64,000 nucleotides of DNA, from contig NC_009523.1 of assembly GCF_000016665.1 (NCBI RefSeq), positions 3,657,501-3,721,500 on the forward strand, written 5' to 3'. Of the stretch, positions 11,936 to 29,501 are shown in pieces (position 1 is the first letter of the stretch; every line of letters begins with the position of its first letter). The DNA is from Roseiflexus sp. RS-1. GTDB taxonomy: Bacteria > Chloroflexota > Chloroflexia > Chloroflexales > Roseiflexaceae. Under the pieces are notes generated by a model. The model saw only the letters and a list, made by a program, of their open reading frames with translations. It had not been told where the DNA came from and did no database searches. The position numbers and the translations under genes were made by a program.

Positions 11936-12670
11936 ATGAGCGTTGAAACTGCAACCTCAGCCGGCGCCGCCGTCGCCACACCGCCCGACGAGCGACCGCC
12001 GCTCCACTCCGGCGACCGCCTGACGCGCGCTGAGTTCGCCCGGCGCTATGCGCTGCACCCCGAAATCCAGAAAGCCGAACTGATCGATGGAGTCGTTTAC
12101 GTGGCTTCACCAACTCGCCACCGGCAGCACGGCAGACTGCACCTGATCCTGGTTGCCTGGCTGGGCGTGTACAGCGCCGCAACGCCGGGCGTTGACGGGA
12201 GCAATAACGCGACGGTTCTGCTCGACCTGGAGAATGAGCATCAACCTGACGCCCTCCTGCGCCTCGAACCGATCCACGGCGGGCGCTCGCGCGTCACCCG
12301 CGACGATTACATCGAAGGTCCGCCCGACCTGATTGTCGAAGTCGCCGCCAGCAGCGCCGCTTACGACCTGCACGACAAGAAGCGCGTTTACGCCCGCAGC
12401 GGCGTGCAAGAGTATCTGGTGGCGCAGGCGTATGAGCGCCGGGTCGACTGGTGGGAACTGCGCGAGGGGGTCTTTACCCCTCTGCCGCTCGAAGCGGACG
12501 GCACGCTGCGCAGTCGCGTCTTCCCCGGCTTGTGGCTCGACCCGGCGGCGCTGTGGGCGGGTGACGCCGCCGCTCTGCTCGCCACCCTCCAGCGCGGTCT
12601 CGCCAACCCCGCACACGCCGCATTCGTCGAGCGCCTGCGTGCAACCTCCGGGGCGACTCCGGCATCGTGA
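11936..12670 (+). CDS. Uma2-family endonuclease, copy 1
   Basis: 244 residues. The Uma2/DUF820 fold (PD-(D/E)XK-like) is shown by EIQKAELIDGVVYVASPTRHRQHG, DATVL-type strand NNATVLLDLE..HQPDALLRL (catalytic Asp), then PDLIVEVAASSAAYDLHDKKRVYARSG (Glu and Lys, with the typical V-E-V...D...K...Y pattern) and QEYLV. Uma2 genes are abundant in cyanobacteria and Chloroflexota and their function is uncertain. The second copy begins 11 bases downstream. Confidence 0.85.
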   Translation: MSVETATSAGAAVATPPDERPPLHSGDRLTRAEFARRYALHPEIQKAELIDGVVYVASPTRHRQHGRLHLILVAWLGVYSAATPGVDGSNNATVLLDLENEHQPDALLRLEPIHGGRSRVTRDDYIEGPPDLIVEVAASSAAYDLHDKKRVYARSGVQEYLVAQAYERRVDWWELREGVFTPLPLEADGTLRSRVFPGLWLDPAALWAGDAAALLATLQRGLANPAHAAFVERLRATSGATPAS

Positions 12671-12681
12671 AAGGGGAGACG

Positions 12682-13410
12682 ATGAGCGTCGAAACTGCAA
12701 CCTCAGCCGGCGCCGCCGTTGCCGCACCGCCCGACGAGCGACCGCCGCTCCACTCCGGCGACCGCCTGACGCGCGCTGAGTTCGCCCGGCGCTATGCGCT
12801 GCACCCCGAAATCAAGAAAGCCGAACTGATCGATGGAGTCGTTTACGTGGCTTCACCAACCCGCCACCGGCAGCACGGCAAGCCGCACAGCCTGCTCGTT
12901 GGATGGATCATCGCTTACGCAGCGGCAACTCCGGGTGTGGATTTCAGTGACAACGCGACGGTTCTGCTCGACCTGGAGAATGAGCATCAACCTGACGCCC
13001 TCCTGCGCCTCGAACCGATCCACGGCGGGCGCTCGCGCGTCACCCGCGACGATTACATCGAAGGTCCGCCCGACCTGATTGTCGAAGTCGCCGCCAGCAG
13101 CGCCGCTTACGACCTGCACGACAAGAAGCGCGTTTACGCCCGCAGCGGCGTGCAAGAGTATCTGGTGGCGCAGGCGTATGAGCGCCGGGTCGACTGGTGG
13201 GAACTGCGCGAGGGGGTCTTTACCCCTCTGCCGCTCGAAGCGGACGGCACGCTGCGCAGTCGCGTCTTCCCCGGCTTGTGGCTCGACCCGGCGGCGCTGT
13301 GGGCGGGTGACGCCGCCGCTCTGCTCGCCACCCTCCAGCGCGGCCTCGCCGATCCTGCACACGCCGCATTCGTCGAGCGCCTGCGCAGGGCGGAACAGGG
13401 CGCTGCCTGA
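12682..13410 (+). CDS. Uma2-family endonuclease, copy 2 (tandem duplicate)
   Basis: 242 residues from the ATG at 12682 (AAAGGGGA upstream; an in-frame GTG at 12667 is less likely). Same domain layout and catalytic residues as copy 1. Nucleotide identity is nearly complete at both ends, but a block of about 75 bases (12885-12957 against 12139-12211) differs strongly, changing the stretch after HRQHG. This looks like duplication followed by divergence of one patch and homogenisation of the rest. Confidence 0.85.
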   Translation: MSVETATSAGAAVAAPPDERPPLHSGDRLTRAEFARRYALHPEIKKAELIDGVVYVASPTRHRQHGKPHSLLVGWIIAYAAATPGVDFSDNATVLLDLENEHQPDALLRLEPIHGGRSRVTRDDYIEGPPDLIVEVAASSAAYDLHDKKRVYARSGVQEYLVAQAYERRVDWWELREGVFTPLPLEADGTLRSRVFPGLWLDPAALWAGDAAALLATLQRGLADPAHAAFVERLRRAEQGAA

Positions 13411-13414
13411 TGGC

Positions 13415-13514
13415 GGAATAGAACACGGATCGGCACGGATGCGACGGATCAGCGCGGATGAAGGTTTGTCGGGAATAGCCCGCGCAGGCGGGCTTTGCCC
13501 TGGATAGCCGAGGG
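13415..13514 (+). repeat. 100-bp direct repeat, left copy
   Basis: Matches 29502-29601 in the same orientation with 2 differences seen by eye. It comprises GGAATAGAACAC, a CACGGATGCGACGGATCAGC segment, and the GCCCGCGCAGGCGGGC hairpin. It follows directly after the second Uma2 gene. A partial further copy lies at 13756-13803. Confidence 0.85.
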
Positions 13515-13608
13515 GTTCACCCCGACGGCACGCCTCTCAAGGGTAGAGTTTTTGGGAGAGATGAGCGATGTTCTGCATTCCTGTGCGCCTTTACCCCTCA
13601 TCCCCCCA

Positions 13609-13950: not shown

Positions 13951-13979
13951 TTGCAGAGGACCGGCAAGCCTGATATGAT
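13951..13979 (+). promoter_or_regulatory. Sigma-70-type promoter for the methyltransferase/MBL operon
   Basis: TTGCAG (13951-13956), a 17-base spacer and TATGAT (13974-13979), about 37 bases before the first possible start codon of the methyltransferase. Confidence 0.6.
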
Positions 13980-14015
13980 AGCGCGAAATGTACACTTGTT
14001 CTCCATGGACAGGTA

Positions 14016-16814
14016 GTGTCTGAAGAGGCAAAGATGCTCTCACAAGCCGCGCCGTCTCACGAACGTTTAGGTTTCGCACCGCTTCCCGATAACGCTCGCC
14101 AGGCAGTCTATGACAGCCTGACTGCGTGTGGCTTTGCTCATGAAGCTATTCTTGAGTCGTACAACTTTACCGGACGTGGTGGTGATTTCACCCTCAATAT
14201 GCTGGCCTTCGCGGATCGTGTTCGCCGTAATCCTGCGGAATATGCCGGATGCACGGTGTACAACGCAACGAATGGTCTTCCTGATAGAGAGATTGTCTCA
14301 GTTCTTGCTCAGACAGCGGCGCCTTTTCACATCATTCATCGAGAAGACAGGTTTTCGTTTTGGGCAACCACATTAGAGCAAAACACAATAAATCCCATTG
14401 ATTTAGGAGCTGAGATTTCCTATGCTCAGCTATCTCAGGTACTTCAAGAATACAAAATCGATCTCGCTCCTGACCAGATAGTCAGTGTGAAACAGGGTCG
14501 CAGTCAATTTGCGCATCCCCACTTACGCGATTTGGAACCGCTTCAACTTGCGCTGTGGGCTATCGATGTCACCCGCGACACGCTGGTAGATACATTTGGA
14601 CGAGCCGTAACACAATTACGCGCCGATATGAACGATCGACCTGATCCCGAAATCACGGGCCTGGCAATTCGCATGCTCGGCGCGATGATTCTTGCCGATA
14701 CCGGCGCCCTGGACGCATCAATGCGACAGCGAAGAAGCGATCTGTCGTTCGATCAGTTGCTCCTCGGCGCCGCCAGGAAGTATCCGACCTATTTTGGGGA
14801 CATGCACCTTTTTTTGGAGCGGGATTATCGGCGGATCGAACGCGCCTATGACATCTTGCGCCGAATATATTATTCTGGCTTCGTTCCCGATATGCTCAGT
14901 GCGCTTTATACGAAAGCCTACGGTAAAGAGAAACGAAAGAAACTCGGCTTCTATGATACACCCCTCTATCTTACTCGTCGCATTTTGCACAACATTCCGG
15001 TTGAGTTTCTCCCCCCAAAGCAGCGCATTGTCGTAGATATGACATGCGGGTGGGGAAGCTTCCTTATTGCGGGCGTCGAGCGGTTATCGCAACTGAGCGA
15101 CATGCGTGATCAATCGCTCCGCGATCATATTATCGGGAATGACATTGACATCTTCACAGCGCAACTTGCCGGTCTTGGGCTTTTGCTTGCCACGTCAGAA
15201 GATAGCTGGCATATCGATCATGAGGATGCGCGTCAATGGTCCTGGATTGACATGCACACACCAGGCATCATTGTTGGCAACCCACCCTTTCGTGGCAGGC
15301 GTGATCAGCCTGAAAGCCTGGAAGACTTGATGCCAACGAAAGGAAAGCGAACGCGCGTTGAGGCCGCTAATGCATATTTAGATCTTGCCATACGCAACGT
15401 TCGAACTGGCGGTTATATTGCCATGATTATGCCGCAATCATTTCTTGTTGCTGAGGCGGGCCCTGACGTGCGGCGCAATCTCCTCGAAAGCTGTGATGTC
15501 ACTGAGATCTGGGAACTTCCAGGGCGCATGTTTCCTGATGCAAAGGTGCAGCCAATTGTGCTTTTTGCCCGCAAGGAGTCGGGGAAGCGCAAGACGGTAT
15601 TCCCGATCCGCACACGGAATGTTCAGAAAAGCACCATCGAAGCGTTTAAGAAGTCGGGGATTTTTACGGCTTCGAATATCGCATCAGGTTTTTCCATACC
15701 AGAAGATGGCGACATCAAGACCAGTGCAAAAGAGACCTACAGAATAGATGCACCCGTCATTTTGTCAGATGTAGATTGGCATACATTACGCCAAAGATGT
15801 AGAAATCTTGCTGAGTATGCAACCATATTCCCCGGTACAATTCGGGGCAAGAAGAAAGAAAATAAGCGGTGGCTGGATGATCCAGAGCAACGCGAGGTTT
15901 TATGGCTGACAAATGCGCTAAAGACCGTGCCGGGATTATGGCATATCAATTATAGGGCAGCAATCAGCAAAACTTACCCGAGGGACTTCGAAGAGCCACG
16001 TCTTGAGTATCAAGATATACTTGATTCGGAAAAAATTATTATGGTAGCCAAACCTAATCCCAGTTGGGGCAGACGCGCGAAAGCTGTTGTTGAACGGCAA
16101 GGTTATCACGTCTCGCATAGCTTCTGGGTTGTGTGGCCTGATGAAAAAACAAACCCCTATCTCTCGAAGGAAGCGCTGACTGCCATCATGAACTGGCACG
16201 TCAGCAACGCCTGGATTGCTGAATATCTCAACTATCCATGGATTGAACGACGCATCATTGAAACGATACCCATTCCGCGAGATCTCAGTCCAGATGATTG
16301 TCTTGCATTGACCGACGCTGTTCGAGCGATTGAGCGGGCTGCATATGCTCATCAGCGTTTACCAGAAGATTCGGTTCAATCCATCGATACGATTCTTCGC
16401 AGAGCCTATGACCTGGACGACGCCACCTACGCACGACTGCGCGCGATATCGGAGTGGGATGAGCATCCTCATATCACGCTTGATCCGCAGCCTGATCGCA
16501 GTGTTGCCGATTATATCATTAGTGGTATCGTCGAAGAGGTGCAGGCTGAAAAGGGCGTCGTGTCCCTCTGGATCAGCGGCTTCGACGATGCGCAGACCGT
16601 GCCGATCGATCCTCTCATGCCTGGATGGATGCTGCGCCCGGAGACGCCGTTCCGGGCAAAAATACCCTTTGTTCATAAGCGCAAACGTTCACTTGAAGGT
16701 GTCGTGTGGAACTCGTTTGCTCCACAGCAACACACCTACCAGAATGAAGATGAACTTGTTCAAGAATTAGCCCGTATTTTCGCCTTCGCGGAGAACAAGA
16801 CGGATGACGTTTGA
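14016..16814 (+). CDS. N6-adenine DNA methyltransferase (Eco57I/type IIG-like)
   Basis: 932 residues from a GTG at 14016; an ATG at 14034 with GAAGAGG upstream is a good alternative. After a long N-terminal region of about 300 residues with no recognised domain come GFYDTPLYLTRRIL (~311-324), the SAM motif DMTCGWGSF (~341-349), GNDID (~374-378) and the catalytic motif NPPF (422-425), so it is a gamma-class amino-methyltransferase. The C-terminal ~450 residues would hold target recognition. I could not locate a convincing nuclease site, so a restriction partner is not obvious. The gene is visibly AT-richer than its neighbours and overlaps the next by 11 bases. Confidence 0.85.
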   Translation: MSEEAKMLSQAAPSHERLGFAPLPDNARQAVYDSLTACGFAHEAILESYNFTGRGGDFTLNMLAFADRVRRNPAEYAGCTVYNATNGLPDREIVSVLAQTAAPFHIIHREDRFSFWATTLEQNTINPIDLGAEISYAQLSQVLQEYKIDLAPDQIVSVKQGRSQFAHPHLRDLEPLQLALWAIDVTRDTLVDTFGRAVTQLRADMNDRPDPEITGLAIRMLGAMILADTGALDASMRQRRSDLSFDQLLLGAARKYPTYFGDMHLFLERDYRRIERAYDILRRIYYSGFVPDMLSALYTKAYGKEKRKKLGFYDTPLYLTRRILHNIPVEFLPPKQRIVVDMTCGWGSFLIAGVERLSQLSDMRDQSLRDHIIGNDIDIFTAQLAGLGLLLATSEDSWHIDHEDARQWSWIDMHTPGIIVGNPPFRGRRDQPESLEDLMPTKGKRTRVEAANAYLDLAIRNVRTGGYIAMIMPQSFLVAEAGPDVRRNLLESCDVTEIWELPGRMFPDAKVQPIVLFARKESGKRKTVFPIRTRNVQKSTIEAFKKSGIFTASNIASGFSIPEDGDIKTSAKETYRIDAPVILSDVDWHTLRQRCRNLAEYATIFPGTIRGKKKENKRWLDDPEQREVLWLTNALKTVPGLWHINYRAAISKTYPRDFEEPRLEYQDILDSEKIIMVAKPNPSWGRRAKAVVERQGYHVSHSFWVVWPDEKTNPYLSKEALTAIMNWHVSNAWIAEYLNYPWIERRIIETIPIPRDLSPDDCLALTDAVRAIERAAYAHQRLPEDSVQSIDTILRRAYDLDDATYARLRAISEWDEHPHITLDPQPDRSVADYIISGIVEEVQAEKGVVSLWISGFDDAQTVPIDPLMPGWMLRPETPFRAKIPFVHKRKRSLEGVVWNSFAPQQHTYQNEDELVQELARIFAFAENKTDDV

Positions 16815-17868
16815 GCATAGCGTCAAAGTGGCATTCCTGGATGTGGGGCAGGGCGATAGTATCGTGGTGACAGTGCCGAATACTGGAGAGGCTGTCATCA
16901 TCGATTGTCCCGAAGCAGATACGGTCATTGAGTATCTGCGCAATGAACGTATTCACTCTATTCGTGCGCTGATCATTACCCATCTTCACCTTGATCACTT
17001 CAAGGATGCTGTAGGGTTCCTTGAGAACTGTAGTTCACAATTGAACATCAAGTGTGAACACCTTATTTTTAACTGGCCATCAAACCTCCAAAAGTTGGCG
17101 CCTGATGCCGATGGGCATAGTGAGATATATCGTAATCCAAAACGACGTAATCAGGCGCGGCTCACAGCCTATCAAGAATTGGTTGCCTGGACAAAGCGAA
17201 ACACACGCTCATGCTTTCCATTATTGCGGCCCAACAATGGATATCGCCTAAGGATTAAGGGGACAATCAAGGACGCAATTAGAATTTTGCAGCCCTCGCA
17301 CGGTTGCATGGGCTCTCTTATGCAGTCTGGTTTGAACAATACATCGGCTGTCCTGCGAATAGAAGGACCGGGTTCTTCAGCTTTACTTACGGCAGATATT
17401 GAACCAGATGGATGGAATCAGTTAAGAAGTAGCCATTCAGATCTGCAAAGTGACGTGCTTAAGTTTCCTCACCATGGCGCCTGGAAGAATGCTGACCCTG
17501 CCGATATCCTGACCGCAGTTGATCCTTCAATCGTCATTATCTCCGTTGGCACAGATGGCATTCAATACAGCCACCCTAACGTTCATGTCTTTGCTGCCAT
17601 ACGTAACCGTTCAAACACGAGATTACTCTGTACTCAGGCAACAAGCCGTTGTGTTGATAATCCTGACTCTCACGCGAGTCAAATTGATGCCATTCTTCAA
17701 GCACATTCGCGTGGAAGCGGACATATCCGTACCCATCGTGGCTGCCCCTGCGCCGGAACGATAGTCATCGAATTGGGCGATCAGGTTACGGTTCTTCAGC
17801 CGGACATTTCAGTCCATCGCAACCAGATCATTCTGCGATTTCTCACATCGCATCGGTGCCGCATATAG
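16804..17868 (+). CDS. ComEC/Rec2-like metallo-beta-lactamase-fold hydrolase
   Basis: 354 residues. The start overlaps the methyltransferase stop by 11 bases, so the two are translationally coupled. The fold starts with VAFLDVGQGDSIVV; the metal site is HLHLDH (residues 60-65), followed by the acidic LLTADIE, the KFPHHGA His pair and the SHPN His, which is the order seen in the C-terminal nuclease domain of ComEC. A Cys cluster near the C-terminus (CTQATSRC ... GCPCAG) recurs in stand-alone members and may bind zinc. No membrane helices. Probably a soluble nuclease or phosphodiesterase acting with the methyltransferase. Confidence 0.85.
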   Translation: MTFEHSVKVAFLDVGQGDSIVVTVPNTGEAVIIDCPEADTVIEYLRNERIHSIRALIITHLHLDHFKDAVGFLENCSSQLNIKCEHLIFNWPSNLQKLAPDADGHSEIYRNPKRRNQARLTAYQELVAWTKRNTRSCFPLLRPNNGYRLRIKGTIKDAIRILQPSHGCMGSLMQSGLNNTSAVLRIEGPGSSALLTADIEPDGWNQLRSSHSDLQSDVLKFPHHGAWKNADPADILTAVDPSIVIISVGTDGIQYSHPNVHVFAAIRNRSNTRLLCTQATSRCVDNPDSHASQIDAILQAHSRGSGHIRTHRGCPCAGTIVIELGDQVTVLQPDISVHRNQIILRFLTSHRCRI

Positions 17869-18158: not shown

Positions 18159-19121
18159 ATGGCTTCCCGTGAGTCGCTCTTTATCGGCATTGATGTCTCC
18201 AAACAGACGCTGGATGTGGCGTTTGGCGCCGACCCGCACGCGCCACTCGAGACGATACCGTCTACCGACGAAGGTGTCCAGCTCCTGGTCACGCGACTCC
18301 AGCGCCTGCAGCCGACCCTGATTGTGCTGGAGGCGACCGGCGGGCTGGAGCGCATGGTGTTCGCCCAACTGCTCCAGGCTGGCTTGCCGACGGCGCGGGT
18401 GCAGCCACGCCGCGTGCGCGCCCTGGCGCACGCGGAAGGACGCCAGGCGAAGACCGACCGCCTGGATGCCCGGTTGCTCGCCCGCTTTGCCGAACGGGTG
18501 CGCCCGCCGCACCACCAAGCGACGGACGAGCAGCGCGCATCCTTGCGCGACCTGCTGGTCCGGCGGGAGCAGGTGATTCCGATGCGGACGGCTGAGATCA
18601 ATCGGTTGACGGCTGCCGCGCCGAACCTCCGCCCGGGCATCCAGCAGCATATTGATTGGCTGGATCAGGAGATCCGTGCGCTTGAGCAGGAACGCGACAA
18701 CGAGGCGGAGCGCACCGACGAGGTGCGCCGGAAACGGGAGCTGCGCGAAAGCGTGCCCGGCATCGGCGCGATCACCGCACTGAACCTGCTGCTCCGCCTG
18801 CCCGAACTGGGGACCATCAAGCGCACGGAAGCGGCGGCCTTTGTGGGCGTTGCGCCGTATGCCAATCAGAGCGGCGCACAGCACAAACCCCGGCATATCT
18901 CCGGCGGCAGGAGGGATGTGCGCAGCGTGTTGTACATGGCGACCCTGGCGGCCACGCGGCGCCGTCTGGTCAGGCGCGCCTTCGATCAGCGCCTGTGTCA
19001 AGCTGGCAAGCCGCGCAAGGTCGCCATCGTCGCTGCGATGCGCAAGCTGCTGACTATTCTCGGCGCAATATTGCGTCAGCAAAAGCCCTGGGATCCGGCT
19101 GTGCATACGAGCGCCCCTTGA
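18159..19121 (+). CDS. IS110-family transposase (DEDD recombinase)
   Basis: 320 residues, ATG preceded by CAGGAGGT. The RuvC-like DEDD domain shows IGIDVSKQTLDV (first Asp), LIVLEATGG (Glu), and KTDRLDARLLARF (Asp pair). A coiled coil (EQERDNEAERTDEVRRKREL) links to the C-terminal Tnp domain with the HhH-like SVPGIGAITAL and AAFVGVAPYANQSG and the serine-containing SGGRRDVRSVLYMA. Length is normal and the frame is intact, so it may be functional. Confidence 0.9.
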   Translation: MASRESLFIGIDVSKQTLDVAFGADPHAPLETIPSTDEGVQLLVTRLQRLQPTLIVLEATGGLERMVFAQLLQAGLPTARVQPRRVRALAHAEGRQAKTDRLDARLLARFAERVRPPHHQATDEQRASLRDLLVRREQVIPMRTAEINRLTAAAPNLRPGIQQHIDWLDQEIRALEQERDNEAERTDEVRRKRELRESVPGIGAITALNLLLRLPELGTIKRTEAAAFVGVAPYANQSGAQHKPRHISGGRRDVRSVLYMATLAATRRRLVRRAFDQRLCQAGKPRKVAIVAAMRKLLTILGAILRQQKPWDPAVHTSAP

Positions 19122-19417
19122 CAAGCAACACAGTTACTCCGCGCCTCCGCGTGAGCCGGTCTGATGCACGCAGAGATACGGAGCACGCGGAGGGATGTCG
19201 CACAAGGCGTCTGCTTTTGATGGCGTGTGCAACCCTGTCCAACAAGACCAATCTTTGTGAGAACTGCTGTAATCCGCTACGCCGAACCAGCCATGGGGCT
19301 GATAGAGATTAAGAATATAAACCGGTATGCGCCCTTTGCCGTCGGGCTGATGGACTTTGAAAAAATATTCCGTTATACTGATATCCATCCGTGTCAAGCC
19401 TTTCTCAGGAGGTTGCG
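19122..19417. repeat. Inter-IS gap with dispersed repeats
   Basis: No gene seen. It contains a CTCCGCGCCTCCGCGTGAG block (shared with the array at 25830-26317), a degenerate CAACC.TGTCCA...GAGAACTGCT.TAAT block (19225-19272, shared with 1966-2005), and GAGATTAAGAATATAAACCG (19304-19323, shared with 1762-1775). An IS630 left end may lie here. Confidence 0.5.
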
Positions 19418-20584
19418 ATGCCGGCACGCCAGACCCTTCACGTGTCCGTCGAGGAGCGGGAGGCCCTCGAAGACCTGCGCGATCACGCCCCCACGCCCTA
19501 TTTGCGTGAACGGGCGGCAGCGTTCCTGCTCATCGCGTCCGGCGTGCCGCCCGCTGTCACGGCGCGCGAACGCTTGCTGCGTCCGCGCCATCCGGAAACC
19601 GTCTCTCGCTGGCTGAATCGCTGGGAAGCCGAGGGCATCGATAGCCTCCCCATCCGGGACGGACGCGGGCGCACGCCCGCTTTTTCCCCCTGACCGCCAT
19701 GACCCTGAGACGGCGGCTACTGCGGGAGAGCATCTGGTCCGCCGTGACCCGCGGCAGTGCGGGCTGACCCAGACGCGCGGGACCCTGGACGCCATCCGCA
19801 GCCCGTTGGTGTGGGGACGCGACGCCGCGCTGCGCGGGATCGCCCGCATCCTGGATCGGTTGGGCATCACCTGGCAGCGCGCCCGCAGGCATGGGCCTAG
19901 CCCTGATCCTCACGATCAGGCCAAACTGCAGGAGATTGCGGACGTGGTGGAGGATGCCCGCGCGCACCCCAACCAGGTGGTGACCGTGGATCGGGATGAC
20001 GTCACGGTCACCCGGCGCCCGACCCTGGCCAACGGGTATGGACGGGCAGGCGCCGATCAGGTGCGGGCGGAACGGAGTCGGGCGACCGATGGTGACCTGC
20101 GCATCGTGGGCCGTTTGGACGTCGTGACGGGCCAGGTGGTCACCCGGCGGGCGAAGACGATGGGCCTGGCGACGCTGGCGCCGTTCTTCCCGGACCGGCG
20201 CGCTGCCTATCCTGAGGCTGAGCGCATCGATGTCATTCTGGATAATTGGCCGGTCCATGGTCATCCGGATGTCCTGGTGGCGCTTGAGCCGCAAACGACC
20301 CGCTGAGCGTTTTCCCGTCCTGGCAATGGGCCGGCCACCCCCAGTGGACGGGCCGTGCGCCGGGCTGGAGATGTCCGCCGGCCCATCCAACTGATGCCGT
20401 TGCCGACGGATGCGTCGTGGCGCCGCTTGATTGCGAGCAGCTGGGGCGGTGGATGCGTCAGGAGGTCACCCGCGTGCATCGCTGGGCGACGGATCTCGAT
20501 CAGTTGCGCAGCCATCTGGATGCCTTCTTCGCGTCGTTTGCAACCGGCTCGCCAAAGCTTTTACAGTATGTCGGTCTCGGATAG
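19418..20584 (+). pseudogene. IS630-family transposase, frameshifted
   Basis: Three pieces in different frames together match an IS630-type transposase. 19418-19693 is the HTH N-terminus (RWEAEGIDSLPIRDGRGR). 19806-20306 holds the start of the DDE domain (TVDRDDVTVTRRPTLANGYG and VILDNWPVHGH, with two catalytic acids). ~20321-20584 is the end (QEVTRVHRWATDLDQLRSHL). At least two frameshifts break it. CTCAGGAGGT upstream resembles the IS110 ribosome site. Probably immobile on its own. Confidence 0.8.
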
Positions 20585-20740
20585 CGGATTATTTATTCAA
20601 AGACCATAAGCCCTCGGCTGTACGGGGCAAAGCCCGCCTGCGCGGGCTATACCGGACTTAATTCCTAAGGATCATAAGCCCTCGGCTATGCGCTGCGAAG
20701 CCCGCCTGCGCGGGCTAGAGCGGAATAATTACTCAAAGTC
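20585..20740 (-). repeat. Two dispersed GCCCGCGCAGGCGGGC repeat units
   Basis: Two units in reverse orientation to those at 29610-29690 and 57961-58180: CCATAAGCCCTCGGCT followed by AAGCCCGCCTGCGCGGGCT, each with a GC-rich hairpin. They abut the end of the dead IS630 transposase. Confidence 0.75.
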
Positions 20741-20801
20741 CATTAGTGAATCGCCGTCCGCTCCAGTCTGCACCTTCGGTGTGAACTACACCGCCAGCCG
20801 C

Positions 20802-22892
20802 TCAAGGTCGGATCAGGTCACCGAGAAATTCGGACGCAGGCGTCACAGCGGAAACGTGCAAGGCGTCGCGCGCGCGTGTGCAGGCGACGTAGAGCAGGTG
20901 CCGCTCGGTGTTGTACACCTCCTCCAGATCGCTGTCGTCGGTGATGTTCTCAATCCGTGAGTTCAGAGGAACGACCTCGTCGTCGCAGGCCATCACCGCC
21001 ACGCAGCGGAATTCGAGACCTTTGGCGAGCGGCATGGTGCAGATCGACGCATGACCGTGCTGCATTTCGATGCGTTCATCCAGCACCGCCGACGAAAGCC
21101 CCGCCAGCTCCGCAGCGCGCCGGGCGCGCGCAACCTGCGCGTCAGATCGCACGATGATGCCGATCTCGTTCGGCGCGACCCCCTCCTGCAACTGTTCCTT
21201 CAGCCAGTCTGCGACGCCGGCGGCTTCCTGTTCCTCGTTATCGAAAACGCGGATGACCGGCGGCGGCCCGTTGAAGACCGACACAGTGCCGCGGCGGTCT
21301 TCGACATTGCCGTCAACGTCGGTGAGTTGTGGCGCCAGGAGCCTGTCCGCCTGCGCGCGGATCTGGTGAGAGGTGCGGTAGTTGACGCGCAGCGTGCGCG
21401 ACCGACCGCGCACATCCACGCCCAGTGACGCCCACGAGAAGGGCTGTTGAAAGATGCGCTGACCGAGGTCTCCGGCAAAGAACAGCCGGTTGGTCGCCTT
21501 TGCATCGAAAGCGGCAAGAAAGCGGAGTTGCGGGATCGACATATCCTGAGCCTCGTCAACGACGACAAAGTCGTAGGGCGGTTGGGCGAGGGTCTGGATC
21601 TTCTCCGCCAGGCGCCCGAAAAGCCTGGCGCGCGTCAGCCAGCCTTCCTGTTCCAGCCGCCGGTTGACCGCCTCGAACACTGCCCAGAGTTCGGCGCGTC
21701 GCGCCTCTGGGAGCCGGGTCTTGCGACCGAGTCGCGGCACGGTGCGGTAATCCTCCCAACTCGCAAGCTGCCAGGCATCCACGATTTCTGTCCACTCGTC
21801 GAGCAGGAAGGCTGCCGGGAAGCGCGCCGCCGGGCTGCCCTGAGCCGCTTCGACCAGATACCGTTCAACGGTTTCGCGGGCGACCAGCCGGGGTGCGCCG
21901 AAGTGCAGCGTGTAGAGGCGCTCACCGACGGCGTTGAGCGCACGGATGTCCACGCGCCCGGCGAGTCTGGGTTCGCCTGCGATCAGGCGCCGGAAGAGGG
22001 ACTGCAGGGCGTTGGCGAGCGCGTCCGAAAACGTCGTCAGCAAGACACGCGCATCGGGATGCCTGCGCGCAAGGGATGCCGCGCGGTGCAGCGCCACGAC
22101 TGTCTTGCCGGTGCCGGCGGAACCGGCCACGCGCGCCGGGCCGTTGAAGTCCTTCTCCACCCACTCGCGTTGCGCCGGATGCAGGAAGATCGTCCACCGG
22201 TCCCAGGGATATTCGAGCGCCCGTTTCAGATCCTCGACATCCGTCATCAGGCGGAAGCGGCGTTGCGCGTCAGGGTGCACGAAGGCATCCGCTGCCGGCA
22301 GCACCGGCCGGGGCGTCGGTTTGCCGCCGGTAGCCAGTTCCAGCACTGCTTCGGCGGCTTCGGCGGGCAGATGCTCCGCGAGCGCGAGCAGCCCATCTTC
22401 ATCAGCTTGCTTCACATCCGACAGCCATTCGACCGGAACGCCGTAGGACAGCAGTTCCTCGTCCGCGCAGTGCGCCAACGGCAGCCGGGCCGTTTGTGGA
22501 GACGGCACAGGGACATCGCGCTCTCCGCCTGCCGGGCGCCTGGTTACGACACTATCCTCAACGCGCTCGCGTATCTCGACGAACTGCGCCGCGCCGGTTC
22601 TGGGATGCACCTCCAGCCGACGCCGCTCGGCCCATGCATACGCCTGATCGTGGTGGCCGACGTAACACAGCAGCAAACTGTCGTGCGACCGGTGCACAAT
22701 AATGCGCAGATCGCGGTTGACCCGCACCGACCAGAAGTTTTTGTCGCGCGATTTTTCGATCTTGTGGAACTGCATGCCCGGACTGGACGGATCGGCCTGC
22801 AAGTCGAAAACTGTGACCTTCACGGCTTTCTGCTCTTCGCTCGTCAGCCGGGCGAGGCTGGCGGTAAATGTGTCGGCGATGCGGAAGTGCAT
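20802..22892 (-). CDS. RelE/ParE-like domain fused to UvrD-type superfamily-1 helicase
   Basis: 696 residues; start is 3 bases after the mod stop, so it is the last gene of the R-M operon. Residues ~1-93 match the RelE/ParE fold (FWSVRVNRDLRIIVHRS then LLLCYVGHHDQAYAWAERR). A linker follows, then a UvrD-like helicase: Walker A GSAGTGKT (257-264), motif Ia LTTFSDALA, Walker B VVVDEAQDMS, motif III GDLGQRIFQ, motif IV-like LRVNYRTSHQIR, and a C-terminal LLYVACTRARDAL (motif VI). Whether the RelE-like part is an active RNase or only a structural module cannot be told. It probably acts with Res and Mod. Confidence 0.85.
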   Translation of the reverse strand: MHFRIADTFTASLARLTSEEQKAVKVTVFDLQADPSSPGMQFHKIEKSRDKNFWSVRVNRDLRIIVHRSHDSLLLCYVGHHDQAYAWAERRRLEVHPRTGAAQFVEIRERVEDSVVTRRPAGGERDVPVPSPQTARLPLAHCADEELLSYGVPVEWLSDVKQADEDGLLALAEHLPAEAAEAVLELATGGKPTPRPVLPAADAFVHPDAQRRFRLMTDVEDLKRALEYPWDRWTIFLHPAQREWVEKDFNGPARVAGSAGTGKTVVALHRAASLARRHPDARVLLTTFSDALANALQSLFRRLIAGEPRLAGRVDIRALNAVGERLYTLHFGAPRLVARETVERYLVEAAQGSPAARFPAAFLLDEWTEIVDAWQLASWEDYRTVPRLGRKTRLPEARRAELWAVFEAVNRRLEQEGWLTRARLFGRLAEKIQTLAQPPYDFVVVDEAQDMSIPQLRFLAAFDAKATNRLFFAGDLGQRIFQQPFSWASLGVDVRGRSRTLRVNYRTSHQIRAQADRLLAPQLTDVDGNVEDRRGTVSVFNGPPPVIRVFDNEEQEAAGVADWLKEQLQEGVAPNEIGIIVRSDAQVARARRAAELAGLSSAVLDERIEMQHGHASICTMPLAKGLEFRCVAVMACDDEVVPLNSRIENITDDSDLEEVYNTERHLLYVACTRARDALHVSAVTPASEFLGDLIRP

Positions 22893-22895
22893 ACA

Positions 22896-25385
22896 CTACA
22901 CCCTGAACACCTTCATCACTTCATCCCCCAGGTGGTTGATCACCTTGACGGCGATGCGACCGGATGCGGGTTTCGCAAAGGGACGGGAGGTGTCGCTGTT
23001 CAATGTGGCCCAGGCCTCTTCGTTGATCTCAGCCCTGAGAGTGGTCTTGAGCGCCTTGTAGGGGTCGTTCTGTCCCAGGAAGTAGGCGTGGCGGACGAAG
23101 AAACTCTCTTCGTTGTAGTCGGTGTCGATGAACCAACAGGCGATGCCGTCGGTGGAGTCGCTGCGGATTTCGCCGGTGGAAGGATCGAACACGTCCACGC
23201 CGCGGATCTGCACGCGAATGCGTCCGTCGGGTTCGTGGAGGAGTTTGATGTCCGGTTCGCCAAAGATCACGAAGAGGTTGCCCTTGCCGGTGGGCTTGAG
23301 GTCGCCGCCCATGTGCAGGTCGGCATTCATGCGCGCCCTGAGCACGGGGATGCGACCGAGCCGGTTGAACTCGCTCGCGTGGGCCTCGAAGCTGAAGGCG
23401 CAGGCGATCAGCACGTCGAAACTGGCATCGGCCGCCTCGCGCGCCGCAGCGACGAGATCGGGTCGGCTCACCGTGCCGAACTCAGGACCGATGAAGATCG
23501 CCGCGCGCTTCTCCGTCGCGCCCTCCAGGTAGCGCCCCTCGGCGCAGACCAGTTCACCGGGCCAGGGCACGATCGACGTGAAGCTGATGCGGTCTTCCCT
23601 GTGCACCTGCTGCACGCCGGCGGCTTTGAGGTTCTCCAGCACCATCTGCTCGAAGCCCGGCGGCGGCTGATAATCGGCCTGCAGCTCGCGCACCCGGAGC
23701 GGGTCGATCAGTTCGTCGTTCTCATCCACGAACAGCGTGCGGTGCGGGCTGAGCGACTCCACGGTGAAGGGTCCGGCCACGCGCACCTTTCTGTTGTCGA
23801 TGTAGGGCCTGTCGTAGAGATATTCGATGTCAGCATTGCGGGCAATCGAAGCGTCGATCTCCCGCTGCCGCGCAATGCGCGCCGCCCAGAAATCGGCGAG
23901 CGGCTGCCGGGCGGTTTCGGGCCAGTCGGCGGGCGCCTGCCTGGGAACCTCCCATTCGACGAGTTCATAGGCTTTGACCACCTCGCCAGATGGCATGGTG
24001 AAGGTGGCGCCTTCAGGCGCGTCGAAGCGCACCTCCTTGCCCTCGCGCCCGCCGTTGGTCACGCGGAAGGGCTTTGTGTGGCCCCGCAGCGCCGCATTCA
24101 GGCGCGCTAGCGCCTCCAGCACCTGCGGCTGCCACGTCTCGTAGATGACATCGATCTCGGCATTGTTGGCGATGGATTTCAGCGTGATGTGCGGCACGCG
24201 CTCGTAGACGAAGCCCTGGCGGATGTCGCCGTAGGTCGGCTTCTCGACGTAGGAGCGACCGGACAGCTCGGCCTCCTTGCGCCGGCCCTCGGGCGAGTCG
24301 GCCAGCAGGTAGTAGGGGTAGCGCGCGCCCATCAGCCGCGCGCGGGCCAGCGCCAGCGCCACGCGCGAGGTGTCAATCGTGATCCAGCGCCGCCCCCATT
24401 GCTCGGCCACGTAGGCCGTGGTGCCCGATCCGCAGGTCGGGTCCAGCACCAGGTCGCCGGGGTCGGTAGTCATCAAAATACAGCGCTCGACAACTTTAGT
24501 GCGCGTCTCTACTACGTATCTCTGGTCGGGGTTAAAACTAGCAGTGTCGCTCCAGACCTCGGACAGGACTTTCAAAGGATAGTCGTCAATGTAATATTTC
24601 CACCTTAGTTTATTCCCATCCTTGACCATCCGACCCGTCTTCTTCAAGGCTTCCATGCTGTCGGGGTAGGTTAACTTCCAGTGTCCGTTCTTACTTGGGC
24701 GGAACTTCTCTCCCTCGAATTCAAGTGGGGTATCCTCACCTGATGGTCCTGCACTCTCCAGGCTCACGAGCCGGAAGACTCTCGCCCCTGCTGGCAACAG
24801 CAACGGATCAACCATTTCAGCGTGCGTGATCTTTCGTACGCTGCTATCGGCTAGCTCTACATTACTGTAGAAAGCATCAGGTAGCTTTTTAGAGTATAGC
24901 TGACGATACTTTATGTATTCTTTGTCTTTAGCGTACCAAAGTAGATAGTCGCTTGTCCGGCCCAGCTCATCGGAGACCATACTGCCGGTCTTGGCGAAGG
25001 CGATCTGTCTTACAAAATTATCCGGACCGAACACTTCATCCATCAGGCAGCGCACGCGGTGGACGTTCTCATCGCCGATCTGTACGAAGATCGAGCCGGA
25101 TTCGGTCAGCAGGTCGCGGGCGACGGTGAGGCGGTCGCGCAGGCAGGTGAGGTAGGAGTGGATGCCGTCGCGCCAGGTGTCGCGGAAGGCTTTGACCTGC
25201 TCCGGCTCGCGGGTGATGTGTTCGGGTCGGCCGTCCTTCACGTCGCGGCTGGTGGTGGACCACTGGAAGTTGCTGTTGAATTTGATGCCGTAGGGCGGGT
25301 CGATGTAGATCATCTGCACCTTGCCGCGCAGCCCTTCGCGTTCGGCCAGGCTGGCCATCACCTGGAGCGAGTCACCCAGGATCAT
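22896..25385 (-). CDS. Type III-like site-specific DNA methyltransferase (Mod), main fragment
   Basis: 829 residues from an internal ATG at 25383-25385. It has the beta-class order: catalytic DPPY (MIYIDPPYGI, ~residues 25-34) first, then the SAM motif DPTCGSGT (~residue 320). Homologues start with ~140 further residues that are found here in another frame upstream (25382-25795), so a 2-nt frameshift at ~25431-25438 has split the gene. The ATG overlaps the upstream stop as ATGA, which could allow reinitiation. Residues ~122-305, between the two motifs, are encoded by visibly AT-rich DNA and are the likely target-recognition domain. Confidence 0.85.
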   Translation of the reverse strand: MILGDSLQVMASLAEREGLRGKVQMIYIDPPYGIKFNSNFQWSTTSRDVKDGRPEHITREPEQVKAFRDTWRDGIHSYLTCLRDRLTVARDLLTESGSIFVQIGDENVHRVRCLMDEVFGPDNFVRQIAFAKTGSMVSDELGRTSDYLLWYAKDKEYIKYRQLYSKKLPDAFYSNVELADSSVRKITHAEMVDPLLLPAGARVFRLVSLESAGPSGEDTPLEFEGEKFRPSKNGHWKLTYPDSMEALKKTGRMVKDGNKLRWKYYIDDYPLKVLSEVWSDTASFNPDQRYVVETRTKVVERCILMTTDPGDLVLDPTCGSGTTAYVAEQWGRRWITIDTSRVALALARARLMGARYPYYLLADSPEGRRKEAELSGRSYVEKPTYGDIRQGFVYERVPHITLKSIANNAEIDVIYETWQPQVLEALARLNAALRGHTKPFRVTNGGREGKEVRFDAPEGATFTMPSGEVVKAYELVEWEVPRQAPADWPETARQPLADFWAARIARQREIDASIARNADIEYLYDRPYIDNRKVRVAGPFTVESLSPHRTLFVDENDELIDPLRVRELQADYQPPPGFEQMVLENLKAAGVQQVHREDRISFTSIVPWPGELVCAEGRYLEGATEKRAAIFIGPEFGTVSRPDLVAAAREAADASFDVLIACAFSFEAHASEFNRLGRIPVLRARMNADLHMGGDLKPTGKGNLFVIFGEPDIKLLHEPDGRIRVQIRGVDVFDPSTGEIRSDSTDGIACWFIDTDYNEESFFVRHAYFLGQNDPYKALKTTLRAEINEEAWATLNSDTSRPFAKPASGRIAVKVINHLGDEVMKVFRV

Positions 25386-25795
25386 GCGGTTCGACCAGTT
25401 GGCGTCGTGGCGGTAGAACTCGGTGCGGTCGGCGCGCCTTCGGGGATGCCGTTGAAATCGGCGAAGAGGTCGAGTTGCAATGCCTCAGACGTGTTTTCCT
25501 GAGTGTGCCGCAGCAGGTCGTCGATGAGCGCCTTGGGGTGGATTTTCTCCTGGATGTAGAGCGGCGGCGCGGGGACGACGAGGTCGCTCCAGTCCTGGTA
25601 GTCTTTGCCGCGCCAGACGAGCTGCGGGTCGAGGTCGGTGTTGCGCGGGTAGCGCAGGAGTCTGGGCGCCTGCTCTTCCGGCTTCATCACCGCCTGGTAT
25701 TCGGCGGTGGGGATGTTCTTGCGCTTGTCGTGTTTGTGCGTCAGCGCTTCGATGGACTTGCCAGCATTGGTTGAGGCGCTTTTTTTGCGAGTCAT
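25382..25795 (-). CDS. N-terminal fragment of the split Mod methyltransferase
   Basis: 137 codons, ATG with AAGGAT upstream. The sequence (NIPTAEYQAVM, DLDPQLVWRGKDYQDWSDLV, YIQEKIHPKALIDDLLR, LDLFADFNGIPEG) is the usual N-terminus of this Mod family. After GIPEGAP the frame runs into an unrelated tail and stops at TGA. Dropping two bases from the GGCGCGCC at 25431-25438 restores the expected EGADRTEFYRHDANWSNRM. So this is a fragment, not a separate gene, unless the two parts work as a split enzyme. Confidence 0.85.
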   Translation of the reverse strand: MTRKKSASTNAGKSIEALTHKHDKRKNIPTAEYQAVMKPEEQAPRLLRYPRNTDLDPQLVWRGKDYQDWSDLVVPAPPLYIQEKIHPKALIDDLLRHTQENTSEALQLDLFADFNGIPEGAPTAPSSTATTPTGRTA

Positions 25796-25829
25796 GGTCG
25801 GCTATCCTTATCTCTCTACGTCCCGACGC

Positions 25830-26317
25830 GCCCGTTGTGATCGCACGCGGAGACGCGGATGTGTTTTCTTATGTTGGCACCTTGTGTGACCTCACGCGGA
25901 GGCGTAGAGATGTTTTTGGTCATGGCGTTGCCGTGCGCCTCGTGTGACCTCACGCGGAGACGCGGAGGCGTGGAAGTGTTTTTTCCGGTTTTCTTATCCC
26001 TTCGCATTTCCCGTGTCGCTGCCTGTCCCGTGTGACCTCACGCGGAGACGCGGAGGCGCGGAGGTGTTTTTTCCGGTTTTCTTTTCCCTTCGCATCCCCC
26101 GTGTCTCTGCCTGTCCTTTGTCACCTCACGCGGAGGCGCGGAGGCGCGGAGAGGTTTTACACGTTCCGTATCCCTTCGCATTCCCCGTGTCTCGACGCGC
26201 TCCTTGTGGGCGCACGCGGAGGCGCGAAGGGACAGAGATGCTTAATGTAGTTCCTGCCTCCGCGTTCTCTGCGCCTTCGCGTGCCCCAGATGACCTCATG
26301 CGAAGGCGCGGAGATGT
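25830..26317 (-). repeat. Degenerate tandem array of CACGCGGAGACGCGGAGGCG units
   Basis: About seven units of 50-90 bases, each beginning GTGACCTCACGCGGAG.CGCGGAGG and often followed by a GTTTT..CCGGTTTTCTT..CCCTTCGCAT stretch (starts near 25835, 25885, 25940, 26028, 26117, 26203, 26287). It fills the gap between res and mod and the last unit runs into the 3' end of res. No gene seen. Confidence 0.8.
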
Positions 26318-29300
26318 TCAGTCAGTTCCTGCCTCCGCGCGCTCCGCAGCTCCGTGTGGGCGAATCATCTGCTCAAGCAACTGATCGAACGCCTTCTGTA
26401 TCTGCCAGATGTCGCCGAACTCGGCAAACGCCCAGCGGCCATAGGTCTTGAGGTTGTTCACGCCGGGAATCCAGAAGGTTTCCATCGTCGATTTCTTCTC
26501 CTTCGCATCCTCGCCGCGATAGCCCTTGATCTCGATCACGAGGTGCAGCGGGTCGTGCGGACCCCGGCCATCGTCCACCAGCACGATGAAGTCGGGGCGA
26601 TAGGCGCGGGTTTCCGAGCCGTAGCGGTAGGGGACTTCGAAGCCAAGGTTGTGGTTCTTCACGTAGGCGAGCACGCGGGGATGGCTTTCCGCCACCCGGC
26701 AGAACTCGGCTTCCCAATCGCTATCGAGCACGATCCAGTTGACGTGGCACTTCGGCGGCGGTCCGGCGGTGTCCCATAGCGTTTGCCGCGTAGTAGAGAA
26801 ACGCACATACGCAGTTGATCCGGTGGGGTTATAGGGATCGAGCAGCGCCTTGATCGGGCGCCGGTCCTGAAACTCGCGCGTGATAGCGGCGGTGATCTTA
26901 TTGCAGGCCATGTCGGCGAGTTCCTGGTACATGAGCAAGGCGGGGTACGTGTCGCCCTTGCAGACGAGACAACGATCCAGCCATTCCCCGGTGATGCGCT
27001 TGAGCTGGCCAAAGAGGTGCAGCTTCGGTTCTTCGCCCGGATCGCGCCATTTGTTATAGAGCAGGTGCTTCGTGAGGTTGAAGAGCAGCGCCGAAGGACG
27101 CATGTCCTCGAGGTGCGCGAGGGTCAGATCCACCGCTTCGCCGATGATCCCCTGGTTGCGGGTGATGGTGGGTCCGACGAGGGCGGGGGTGAGTTCGAGG
27201 ATGGAGTCCTCCGTGAATTTTGCAGCCAGGCGCTCGTCGGGCAGCTCAACGCGGTAGCCCTGAACACGCGGGAAACGGATTTCCAGGTGATCGCGCTCGG
27301 GACGGACAGCCCTGACCTGGATGGTCTGGCGCGGCGGCTGGGGCCGGACGACGACCGGCTTCGCGGTGAAGTCGAAGGGAATGCCGAAGATGTCGGCATA
27401 TTCAGGATTGAAGAGACCTTCAGCGTTCACTTCATACGACTGGCGGCGCAGCGCGCGGCCAATGACCTGCTCGCACAACAGCTGGGTGCCAAAGGCGCGC
27501 ACGCCAAGAATGTGGGTGACGTTGTTGGCGTCCCACCCTTCGGTGAGCATGGAGACCGAGACCACGCAGCGGATCTGCTCGCCGAGCTGACCGGGTTTGC
27601 CCACCGTGTTCATAACCTCGCGCAGCAGGTCCTGGTCGGTGAGGCTTTCAGCTTTTCGCGCATCGCCGGTGCGCTCAATGATGGCGCGGCGGAAGCGCTC
27701 GATCTCGTCCGCCGCCATCGCGCGGAAGTTATCGTCGAGAGCCGTGCCGGACTCAAGCTGCTCACTGTCGATGAGCAGGGTGTTGGGGCGGGGCAGCGGG
27801 TTGCCGGTGGTCTCGTCGAAATTGCGGAAGAGCGGCAGCTGGCCGTTGACCAGTGTGCTCGTGCCATCGTCGTTCTGCCGGACAAAGCCCGCGACATAGT
27901 CGTAGACGAGTTTGGAGATCGCGGTGTTCTGGCAGACGATAATGAAGCAGGGAGGCACACGGATGCCAGCCTGCTCCCAGATCCGGAAGGTCTTCTCGTA
28001 GTGGCCGTACAGCGCCTGGAGCGCCGTCTGCAAACGGGTAGGAATCTTCAAGGGATCCAGGTCGCCAGCCTTGCCGCGCCCTTTCTTCGGCATATCCTTG
28101 CGGATGTGCTCCCACAGATTGCGGTACATCGGCATCTCGTCACCCGGGATGTTCTCGGCCACGGGCACGCGCGGGAGCTTCACGATACCACACTCGATGG
28201 CGTCCATCAGCGAAAAATCGCTCATCGTCCACGGGAACAGGGTTCCCTCGGCATAGCCTGAGCCGCGCAGAAAGAACGGCGTGGCCGAAAGGTCGATCAC
28301 CCGGCTCACGCCGATCTTGCGGGCGACAGTCTCGATACCGGTGATCCACAACCGCGCGGCTTCGTTGTTTTTCTCGGCTTCCTTCTTCTCTTCGCTGGTC
28401 AGGTCTTCCTCTTCCGGGTCGCGCGGCTTTTCACGGTAGCAGTGATGACCTTCGTCGTTGAGCACCAGGATGTTTTTCATGCTCATCAGCTCAGGCATCA
28501 CGCGGGCAAGCATCTGCCCTTCCGTCTCGGTGGTCTGGATCGGTTCGCCGCGACCCTGCAGCAGCGCCCGCCCGCCGGCGGACAGTTCCATCCGCTCGCG
28601 CAGTTTGAAGGCGTGGTAGTTGGTGATGACAATCCGGGCGCGGTGGATATCCTCGATCATATCAATGGGAACCAGCTCGCGGGTCGTGTAGTAGTTCTCC
28701 GTGTCGTTCGGAAGCAACACCCGCAGGCGGTCCCGGATGGTGATCCCCGGCGTGACAATGAGAAACCCACGGGTGAAGCGTTTGCTCTGCGGATGGCGCA
28801 CGGCGTTGACCGTCTGCCAGGCGATCAGCATGGCCATGACGGTGGTCTTGCCCGCGCCGGTGGCGAGTTTGAGCGCAAGACGATTGAGTTCGGGGTTGGC
28901 ATCGCGGTTCGCCCGCGCCAGATGATCGAGGAGACCCTTCCCGGCAGCCGTGTGCGGCGCAACTTCAGTGAGCCAGATCACCGTCTCGACCGCCTCGATC
29001 TGGCAGAAGAACGGGCGCACGCTGCTGAACTGGTGATGCCGCCAGTGGTGCAACAAGCGCGCAGTTTCGGGGGTGACCTGCCACTGGCCCGGCGGCAGTG
29101 CGCGCCAGGCATCCACGTGGCTACGCACTTCGTTGATGATCGAGGTCGGGTCGTACTGCTGCGTTGCGGTCGAAAGCCCCAGCCCTTCGTCGAAGATCAT
29201 TTCTGCCTGCTGCGCAGCGCGGCGCTTCTTCAGCCTGGGGATGGGCGTGATAAATTCCGCCCGACGCCGGCCGTGGATAATCTCCCCTGTCGGTTGACCG

Positions 29301-29374
29301 TTTTCGAGCTTCCAGTGGCGCGCAGGGTATTCGTAGGGCGAGTTCAGGATCGGTTGGTCAAAAAACTGGCTCAT
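26318..29374 (-). CDS. Type III-like restriction subunit Res (helicase + nuclease)
   Basis: 1018 residues from the ATG at 29372-29374 (a GTG at 29395 is possible). An SF2 helicase core is clear: LATGAGKTTVMAML (Walker A), LVLNDEGHHCY (Walker B-like, DEGH), DLSATPFF (motif III), SMLTEGWDANNVTHILG and CEQVIGRALRR (motifs V/VI). The C-terminus has a PD-(D/E)XK site: RPDFIVLVDDG ... LVIEIKGYRG. The layout matches Res subunits of type III-like systems (BPTD_3080 type). It cuts DNA after ATP-driven translocation when its Mod partner finds unmodified sites. It heads the operon res-mod-helicase. Confidence 0.9.
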   Translation of the reverse strand: MSQFFDQPILNSPYEYPARHWKLENGQPTGEIIHGRRRAEFITPIPRLKKRRAAQQAEMIFDEGLGLSTATQQYDPTSIINEVRSHVDAWRALPPGQWQVTPETARLLHHWRHHQFSSVRPFFCQIEAVETVIWLTEVAPHTAAGKGLLDHLARANRDANPELNRLALKLATGAGKTTVMAMLIAWQTVNAVRHPQSKRFTRGFLIVTPGITIRDRLRVLLPNDTENYYTTRELVPIDMIEDIHRARIVITNYHAFKLRERMELSAGGRALLQGRGEPIQTTETEGQMLARVMPELMSMKNILVLNDEGHHCYREKPRDPEEEDLTSEEKKEAEKNNEAARLWITGIETVARKIGVSRVIDLSATPFFLRGSGYAEGTLFPWTMSDFSLMDAIECGIVKLPRVPVAENIPGDEMPMYRNLWEHIRKDMPKKGRGKAGDLDPLKIPTRLQTALQALYGHYEKTFRIWEQAGIRVPPCFIIVCQNTAISKLVYDYVAGFVRQNDDGTSTLVNGQLPLFRNFDETTGNPLPRPNTLLIDSEQLESGTALDDNFRAMAADEIERFRRAIIERTGDARKAESLTDQDLLREVMNTVGKPGQLGEQIRCVVSVSMLTEGWDANNVTHILGVRAFGTQLLCEQVIGRALRRQSYEVNAEGLFNPEYADIFGIPFDFTAKPVVVRPQPPRQTIQVRAVRPERDHLEIRFPRVQGYRVELPDERLAAKFTEDSILELTPALVGPTITRNQGIIGEAVDLTLAHLEDMRPSALLFNLTKHLLYNKWRDPGEEPKLHLFGQLKRITGEWLDRCLVCKGDTYPALLMYQELADMACNKITAAITREFQDRRPIKALLDPYNPTGSTAYVRFSTTRQTLWDTAGPPPKCHVNWIVLDSDWEAEFCRVAESHPRVLAYVKNHNLGFEVPYRYGSETRAYRPDFIVLVDDGRGPHDPLHLVIEIKGYRGEDAKEKKSTMETFWIPGVNNLKTYGRWAFAEFGDIWQIQKAFDQLLEQMIRPHGAAERAEAGTD

Positions 29375-29501
29375 GGGGCTGCGCTCATTCCTCACGTTCG
29401 CAGATGCTCAACATAACCGGCGAGTACAGCACTGCCCATTCGCTTGAATACCGCAATTATAGCATGTCGCTCCGCTCCAGAGCGCGCAGGTCTCGGGCGT
29501 T

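Follow-up and report, generated by a model that had tools for sequence, protein, structure and literature searches.

Does an adenine methyltransferase gene that overlaps the gene of a putative nuclease constitute a defence system, and if so, how would the two proteins act together? The question is raised by a locus of Roseiflexus sp. RS-1, found in a stretch of 64,000 nucleotides (the "window", i.e. the whole stretch of DNA analyzed here) of its 5.80-Mb genome, which is assembled as a single contig. The locus encodes an N6-adenine DNA methyltransferase (MTase) and a ComEC-like protein with a metallo-β-lactamase (MBL) fold (Table 1). Comparison of this pair with its relatives suggests that, on balance, it is probably a self-contained, horizontally moving defence cassette similar to restriction-modification (RM) systems, in which the MTase would specify and protect the target and the MBL would cut unmarked DNA.

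Conservation and mobility of the two-gene cassette

The open reading frames (ORFs) of the MTase and the MBL occupy the coordinates given in a preliminary description of the locus and, as it also indicated, have 11 bp in common (16804-16814), and the MBL gene appears to be translationally coupled to the MTase gene by this overlap. The description was also right that the pair is AT-richer than its flanks: the G+C content of the 14-18 kb segment is 49-51%, compared to 55-67% for the adjoining 10-13 kb and 18-23 kb segments (about 50% in surroundings of 60-66% overall), and at the third codon position (GC3) it is 0.50 in the MTase and 0.46 in the MBL, compared to 0.6-0.8 in most neighbours within the window. 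The ratio of non-synonymous to synonymous substitution rates, calculated against the nearest relative (from Oscillochloris fontis), is 0.17 for the MTase and 0.25 for the MBL. Both genes are under purifying selection; therefore both are kept as proteins and neither is a chance ORF.

We searched for relatives in 400 Chloroflexota genomes and, outside the phylum, in collections of plasmids, phages and viral contigs. The Chloroflexota genomes contain five full-length relatives of the MTase (E below 1e-200, including the one from the window), followed by a gap to ordinary MTases, and a search with the MBL independently recovered the same five genomes. The MBL gene follows the MTase gene in all five; both are intact in four, and in the draft genome G236 the MTase is complete but the MBL is reduced to its last third. 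Outside the phylum, a plasmid of Pseudanabaena galeata, a cyanobacterium, carries the pair (MTase of 934 residues and MBL of 347 residues, with a 4-bp overlap of the genes); these proteins are respectively 22% and 32% identical to those of the window. In IMG/VR no relative of the two-gene MTase was found. MTases of looser similarity (E from 1e-10 to 1e-20) have no adjoining gene of an MBL with the four-cysteine (Cys4) tail described below, and apparently are other MTases.

The genomic context of the cassette varies. Neighbouring genes differ among the window and the loci L001, L032 and L033, and no third gene is common to the cassettes of the compared hosts. In L032 and L033, which originate from two congeneric species and have near-identical cassettes, the similarity ends ~120 bp 5' of the MTase gene and at the stop codon of the MBL gene; the low GC3 of the pair is kept in both, with 0.6-0.96 in most of their neighbours. 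According to both the MTase and the MBL searches, the pair is absent from the other sampled members of the window genus, and the left flank of the locus is present in two of them (G330 and G395). The same unit thus occurs at different sites and is absent in close relatives, i.e. it moves horizontally as a cassette. What had been put forward as a candidate module is therefore a real, conserved and mobile one. The preliminary description had named two findings that would speak against it, namely lack of conservation of the pair and frequent absence of the MBL next to the same MTase family; the pair turned out to be conserved, and the only departure in this family is the truncated MBL of a single draft genome.

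Table 1. Coordinates of the MTase-MBL pair and of its sequence features in the window
Feature	Position	Strand	Basis
N6-adenine DNA MTase, 932 aa	14016-16814	+	N6_Mtase, E=3e-22
ComEC-like MBL-fold protein, 354 aa, probable nuclease	16804-17868	+	ComEC_Rec2, E=4e-18
MTase catalytic motif IV, NPPF (aa 422-425)	15279-15290	+	no variation among six relatives, the cyanobacterial one included
Region exchanged between sister cassettes (~aa 455-797)	~15380-16410 (approximate)	+	L032/L033 comparison
MBL metal motif HLHLDH (aa 60-65)	16981-16998	+	with D198 (17395-17397) and HHG (17470-17478)
Cys4 tail: C276, C283, C316, C352 and H338 (CTQxTxxC ... CAGTIxI ... H ... C)	17629-17859	+	Cys and His residues invariant in ten relatives
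Probable promoter: TTGCAG (13951-13956), 17-nt spacer, TATGAT (13974-13979)	13951-13979	+	conserved in four hosts
Operator-like imperfect palindrome TGTTCTCCATGGACA, consensus TGTTCTNNNNGRACA	13997-14011	.	conserved in four upstream regions

Exchange of the putative recognition region between sister cassettes

The MTase comprises an N-terminal region of ~290 residues with no known fold, the MTase domain (approximately residues 300-555), and a C-terminal, putative target-recognition region followed by a small C-terminal domain. Its profile matches the structures of BseCI, HsdM and CamA across residues ~300-560, motif I and NPPF are intact, and the C-terminal part exhibits a weak match to TaqI_C (E=0.18). 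Residues 1-290, where a fused nuclease domain of type IIG would be sought, match no Pfam family. The claim that the pair lacks any recognised nuclease other than the MBL thus stands as far as known families are concerned, and this N-terminal region leaves room for a domain that was not recognised.

Comparison of L032 and L033 reveals an exchange of a single internal segment. At the DNA level, the identity of the two cassettes is 95.7% in the initial 1.48 kb of the aligned unit and 96.7% in the final 1.48 kb, to which the complete MBL gene belongs; the ~1.03 kb separating these ends shows almost no detectable match. The corresponding protein identities are 95.6% for residues 1-450 of the MTase, 42.9% for residues 451-795, 97.1% from residue 796 to the end, and 96.4% for the MBL. 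Within the swapped stretch L032 is 61% identical to the window protein (69-75% elsewhere) and L033 only 43%; since L032 stays close to the window protein there and L033 does not, it is probably L033 that carries the replaced segment. Judging from its position and from the weak TaqI_C match, the exchanged region is likely to be the target-recognition region, and the swap conforms to the pattern expected if this region sets the specificity and the nuclease serves either specificity. If so, the two sister pairs constitute a natural swap experiment, in which methylation and restriction would be directed at different sequences although the MBL is the same.

As is characteristic of RM systems, the cassette encodes an MTase that has both its catalytic motifs and a putative recognition region (N6_Mtase match with E=3e-22, NPPF, motif I, and the swapped region). 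Coupled to it is a candidate for the cognate nuclease, the ComEC-like MBL with intact metal motifs, which is the only predicted nuclease. We propose that the gamma-type N6-adenine MTase would read a DNA site via its own exchangeable recognition region and, as suggested by its family, methylate the host copies of that site. The Cys4-tailed MBL would be a nuclease without sequence specificity of its own, which the MTase would recruit or license on unmodified sites, leading presumably to degradation of the incoming phage or plasmid DNA.

The preliminary description suggested instead a modification-dependent system with the MBL as the effector. The second part of this proposal agrees with our results, as the MBL is the probable effector, but we regard it as very improbable that the MBL cuts DNA bearing the mark of its partner MTase or another modification. 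Such a mechanism is compatible with the sequence, i.e. with an MTase coupled to a predicted nuclease without known specificity; however, a nuclease directed against the mark of its partner would attack the host chromosome, and no modification-reader domain was recognised in domain searches of the pair. The RM-like logic is favoured over it mainly because the recognition region has been swapped with the MBL unchanged.

The MBL protein and its Cys4 tail

The MBL of the window matches Lactamase_B (E=9e-9) in addition to ComEC/Rec2, and its motifs HLHLDH, LNNTS, TADIE, PHHG and Y-HP are intact. Residues H60, D64, H65, D198, H223, H224 and G225 are invariant in the MBL family and in its ComEC-like relatives. 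The structural model is of moderate confidence (mean predicted local distance difference test score, pLDDT, of 67), and its best fold match in the PDB is the MBL domain of ComEC (9ic4, E=5e-15).

The tail is ~60 residues longer than in ComEC-like proteins. In the C-terminal 80 residues of the MBL, four Cys and one His are invariant in ten relatives and possibly form a zinc site. In the 400 Chloroflexota genomes, a profile of the full MBL identified seven members of full length besides the G236 remnant, with a sharp gap between the Cys4-tailed MBLs and generic ComEC proteins (E=1e-67 vs 1e-29), and a profile of the tail alone strongly recovered the same eight places, with three more marginal matches (E from 0.001 to 0.008). 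All eight Cys4-tailed MBL loci adjoin a gene of an N6-adenine MTase, five of them in the two-gene arrangement and three (L091-L093) in a four-gene arrangement, and the tail offers a handle in searches for further members.

The fold, the intact metal motifs, the exchange for an HNH protein in a sister operon (see below) and the DNase activity shown for the related MBL nuclease of Hachiman (PMC12799240) together indicate that the MBL is probably the nuclease. ComEC-like MBLs also occur as probable DNase effectors in AVAST type 1 (Avs1a), Lamassu (LmuA), DRT (RTasMBL) and Hachiman (HamM), where they are paired with proteases (PMC12799240). Gated MBL effectors of AVAST and Hachiman act by abortive infection (PMC12799240), which provides the main rival to the RM-like mechanism: the MTase would guard or sense, and disturbance by a phage or inhibition of methylation would release the MBL as a non-specific DNase, so that the host is killed or arrested. 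We consider this scenario rather unlikely, but it finds some support in the MBL itself, in which the distance from HxHxDH to D198 is 133 residues (read from the sequence), i.e. ~40 more than in ComEC-like proteins (mostly 90-98), with low model confidence in the extra stretch. On the other hand, D198 and HHG are 25 residues apart, as in ComEC, so this second segment carries no insertion, and as only one of the two insert positions is longer, gating of the HamM type is at most half present in the window MBL. Moreover, the cassette contains no protease partner, and the swap of a recognition region is typical of sequence discrimination.

A sister operon with an exchangeable putative effector

The loci L091-L093 contain an operon encoding an MTase (~450 residues), a GHKL/histidine kinase (~690 residues), a receiver-like protein (237 residues) and a Cys4-tailed MBL. 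The same operon is present on plasmids of Hymenobacter and Burkholderia and in the IMG/VR contigs L141-L143. Profiles of the two-gene and four-gene variants align over 384 columns for the MTases (E=1e-8) and over 303 columns for the MBLs (E=2e-31); by this measure the two-gene module is part of a wider set built on the Cys4-tailed MBL. In two contigs of P2-like phages (L141 2072-7230 and L142 809-5967) the operon is adjacent to the portal gene; in L141, genes of the terminase and of P2-type capsid proteins come next. A defence hotspot of P2-like phages has been described in the interval that separates gpA from the portal gene (Rousset et al., PMC9122126). The four-gene MTase had no match in the phage collection.

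A variant of the operon on a Klebsiella variicola plasmid (L145 6881-11750) begins with an MTase and with a kinase and receiver in broken-up form; the place of the MBL is then taken by a probable nuclease of the HNH family (E=3e-4, just short of the Pfam cut-off), and ppl is located nearby. A search of E. coli with this operon gave no match. The effector slot of the sister operon thus appears to be exchangeable, accommodating either an MBL or a probable HNH nuclease. This exchange argues against another alternative, which we find improbable, namely that the pair is an addiction or maintenance module, or a regulatory MTase accompanied by a non-defence MBL (e.g. a phosphodiesterase). RM pairs can be addictive, and the structural matches of the MBL model include esterases as well; however, the best of its fold matches is ComEC, and its relatives are carried by phages and plasmids beside defence genes.

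In the sister operon, the kinase and the receiver stand between the MTase and the putative effector, and P2-like phages are among its carriers; this points to restriction being controlled by signalling, which would also suit abortive infection. More tentatively, and with somewhat less than an even chance in our estimation, both variants could represent one RM-like class, in which a free-standing N6-adenine MTase would guide a Cys4-tailed MBL by means of its recognition region, and which includes a phage-borne four-gene branch gated by the kinase and receiver, with a slot for MBL or HNH.

We also found a related MTase on a Rhizobium phaseoli plasmid (L146 5914-13033), near a phospholipase D (PLD) family protein, a helicase (both according to Pfam) and a DrmB-like protein (by inspection only); this locus is possibly a DISARM-like hybrid.

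Several observations weigh against regarding the pair as an RM-like defence cassette. To our knowledge, the nucleases of classical restriction systems do not belong to the ComEC-like MBL proteins. The known two-gene members are few, six in total (five from Chloroflexota, one of them with a truncated MBL, and one from a plasmid), and their neighbours in L032 and L033 are mostly housekeeping-like genes and not defence islands. The MTase model, built from two sequences, has a pLDDT of 33 and gives no account of the N-terminal 290 residues. Finally, Pseudanabaena ABRG5-3 has the kinase, the receiver and the MBL without an annotated MTase, and its MBL is split by an insertion sequence (IS).

Comparison with known systems

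In agreement with the preliminary description, which did not recognise the pair among named systems, PADLOC 2.0 and NCBIfam contain no name for it and yielded only sub-threshold or generic matches; we also found no description of the two-gene or the four-gene operon in the open-access literature searched. Among the closest known systems are type II/IIG and type I RM systems (with the N6-adenine gamma MTases BseCI and HsdM and the TaqI-like recognition domain), with which the pair shares the MTase domain, the exchangeable recognition region, overlapping genes and the form of a mobile cassette. It differs from them in that the probable nuclease is a ComEC-like MBL encoded by its own gene, and that no PD-(D/E)xK, HNH or helicase/translocase domain was recognised. 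A gene of a helicase/translocase restriction subunit, as in type I and type III RM systems, is missing from the cassette, and the flanks vary among hosts.

Unlike the protease-paired MBL systems, the pair includes no trypsin or caspase and no STAND, SMC, reverse transcriptase or helicase gene, and possesses the Cys4 tail and the MTase. The window MBL scores 52.4 bits against Avs1a (cut-off 420), and two genes alone do not make up AVAST type 1. The nearest name is the "anti-phage 6A-MBL system" of NCBIfam (NF058524), whose make-up of an adenine MTase and an MBL we guess from the name; its composition was not found in the databases or literature searched. The window MBL reaches 21.5 bits with a cut-off of 220, its relatives score 22-34 bits or do not match, and a search of the window genome with this model gave no match at E<=0.001. 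The MTase core resembles those of PglX from BREX and mad2 from MADS, but the scores (30.9 bits of 500 and 26.7 of 720, respectively) fall far short, and the cassette contains no other BREX or MADS gene, PglZ and BrxC included. We describe the pair as a putative ComEC-like MBL variant among RM-like systems, as yet unnamed in PADLOC 2.0 and NCBIfam. If this is true, a nuclease fold would be added to restriction-modification logic, and the pair would illustrate in what way a nuclease without specificity of its own can be guided by an MTase.

Upstream region and genomic neighbourhood

Within the 100 bp upstream of the MTase gene, the element TTGCAG-N17-TATGAT/TATTAT followed by TGTTCTNNNNGRACA is kept in four hosts whose surrounding sequences are otherwise unrelated; one of the four regions has TTGCGG in place of TTGCAG. 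This conservation supports the promoter that the preliminary description had assigned to the pair, although a simple generic promoter scan found nothing above chance upstream of the MTase, with the TTGCAG/TATGAT element below its threshold. The operator-like pattern has 8 sites in the 5.8-Mb genome, compared to 2 for a reversed control pattern, and the palindrome may function as an operator. Control by the SOS response was considered: lexA of the window genome has two GTTC-N4-GAAC boxes upstream (L095 1428-1463), but the palindrome of the pair has five spacer bases and differs in this respect by one. The MTase may start at ATG 14034 (926 residues), which is kept in four hosts together with its AAGATG context, rather than at the alternative GTG 14016 (932 residues).

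On the minus strand of the window, 20802-29395 encodes a helicase with a RelE/HigB-like N-terminus, a type III RM methyltransferase and a restriction subunit of the ResIII type. The methyltransferase scores 1123 bits against a type III model of PADLOC, and the type III genes (22.9-29.4 kb) form a unit separate from the pair and on the opposite strand; the presence of this system among the neighbours counts in favour of a defence role of the pair. When the segment 19.2-25.8 kb was used as a query in other members of the genus, mainly its IS part was matched. An IS110-type transposase is encoded at 18159-19121, and an IS-like element at ~19300-20750 has at least ten further copies in the genome, at 89-96% identity. 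Just upstream of the pair there are two tandem Uma2-family genes (11936-13410), ~86% identical over 300 nt, followed by dispersed intergenic repeats (13415-13600) with many copies in the window genome and in its relative G330.

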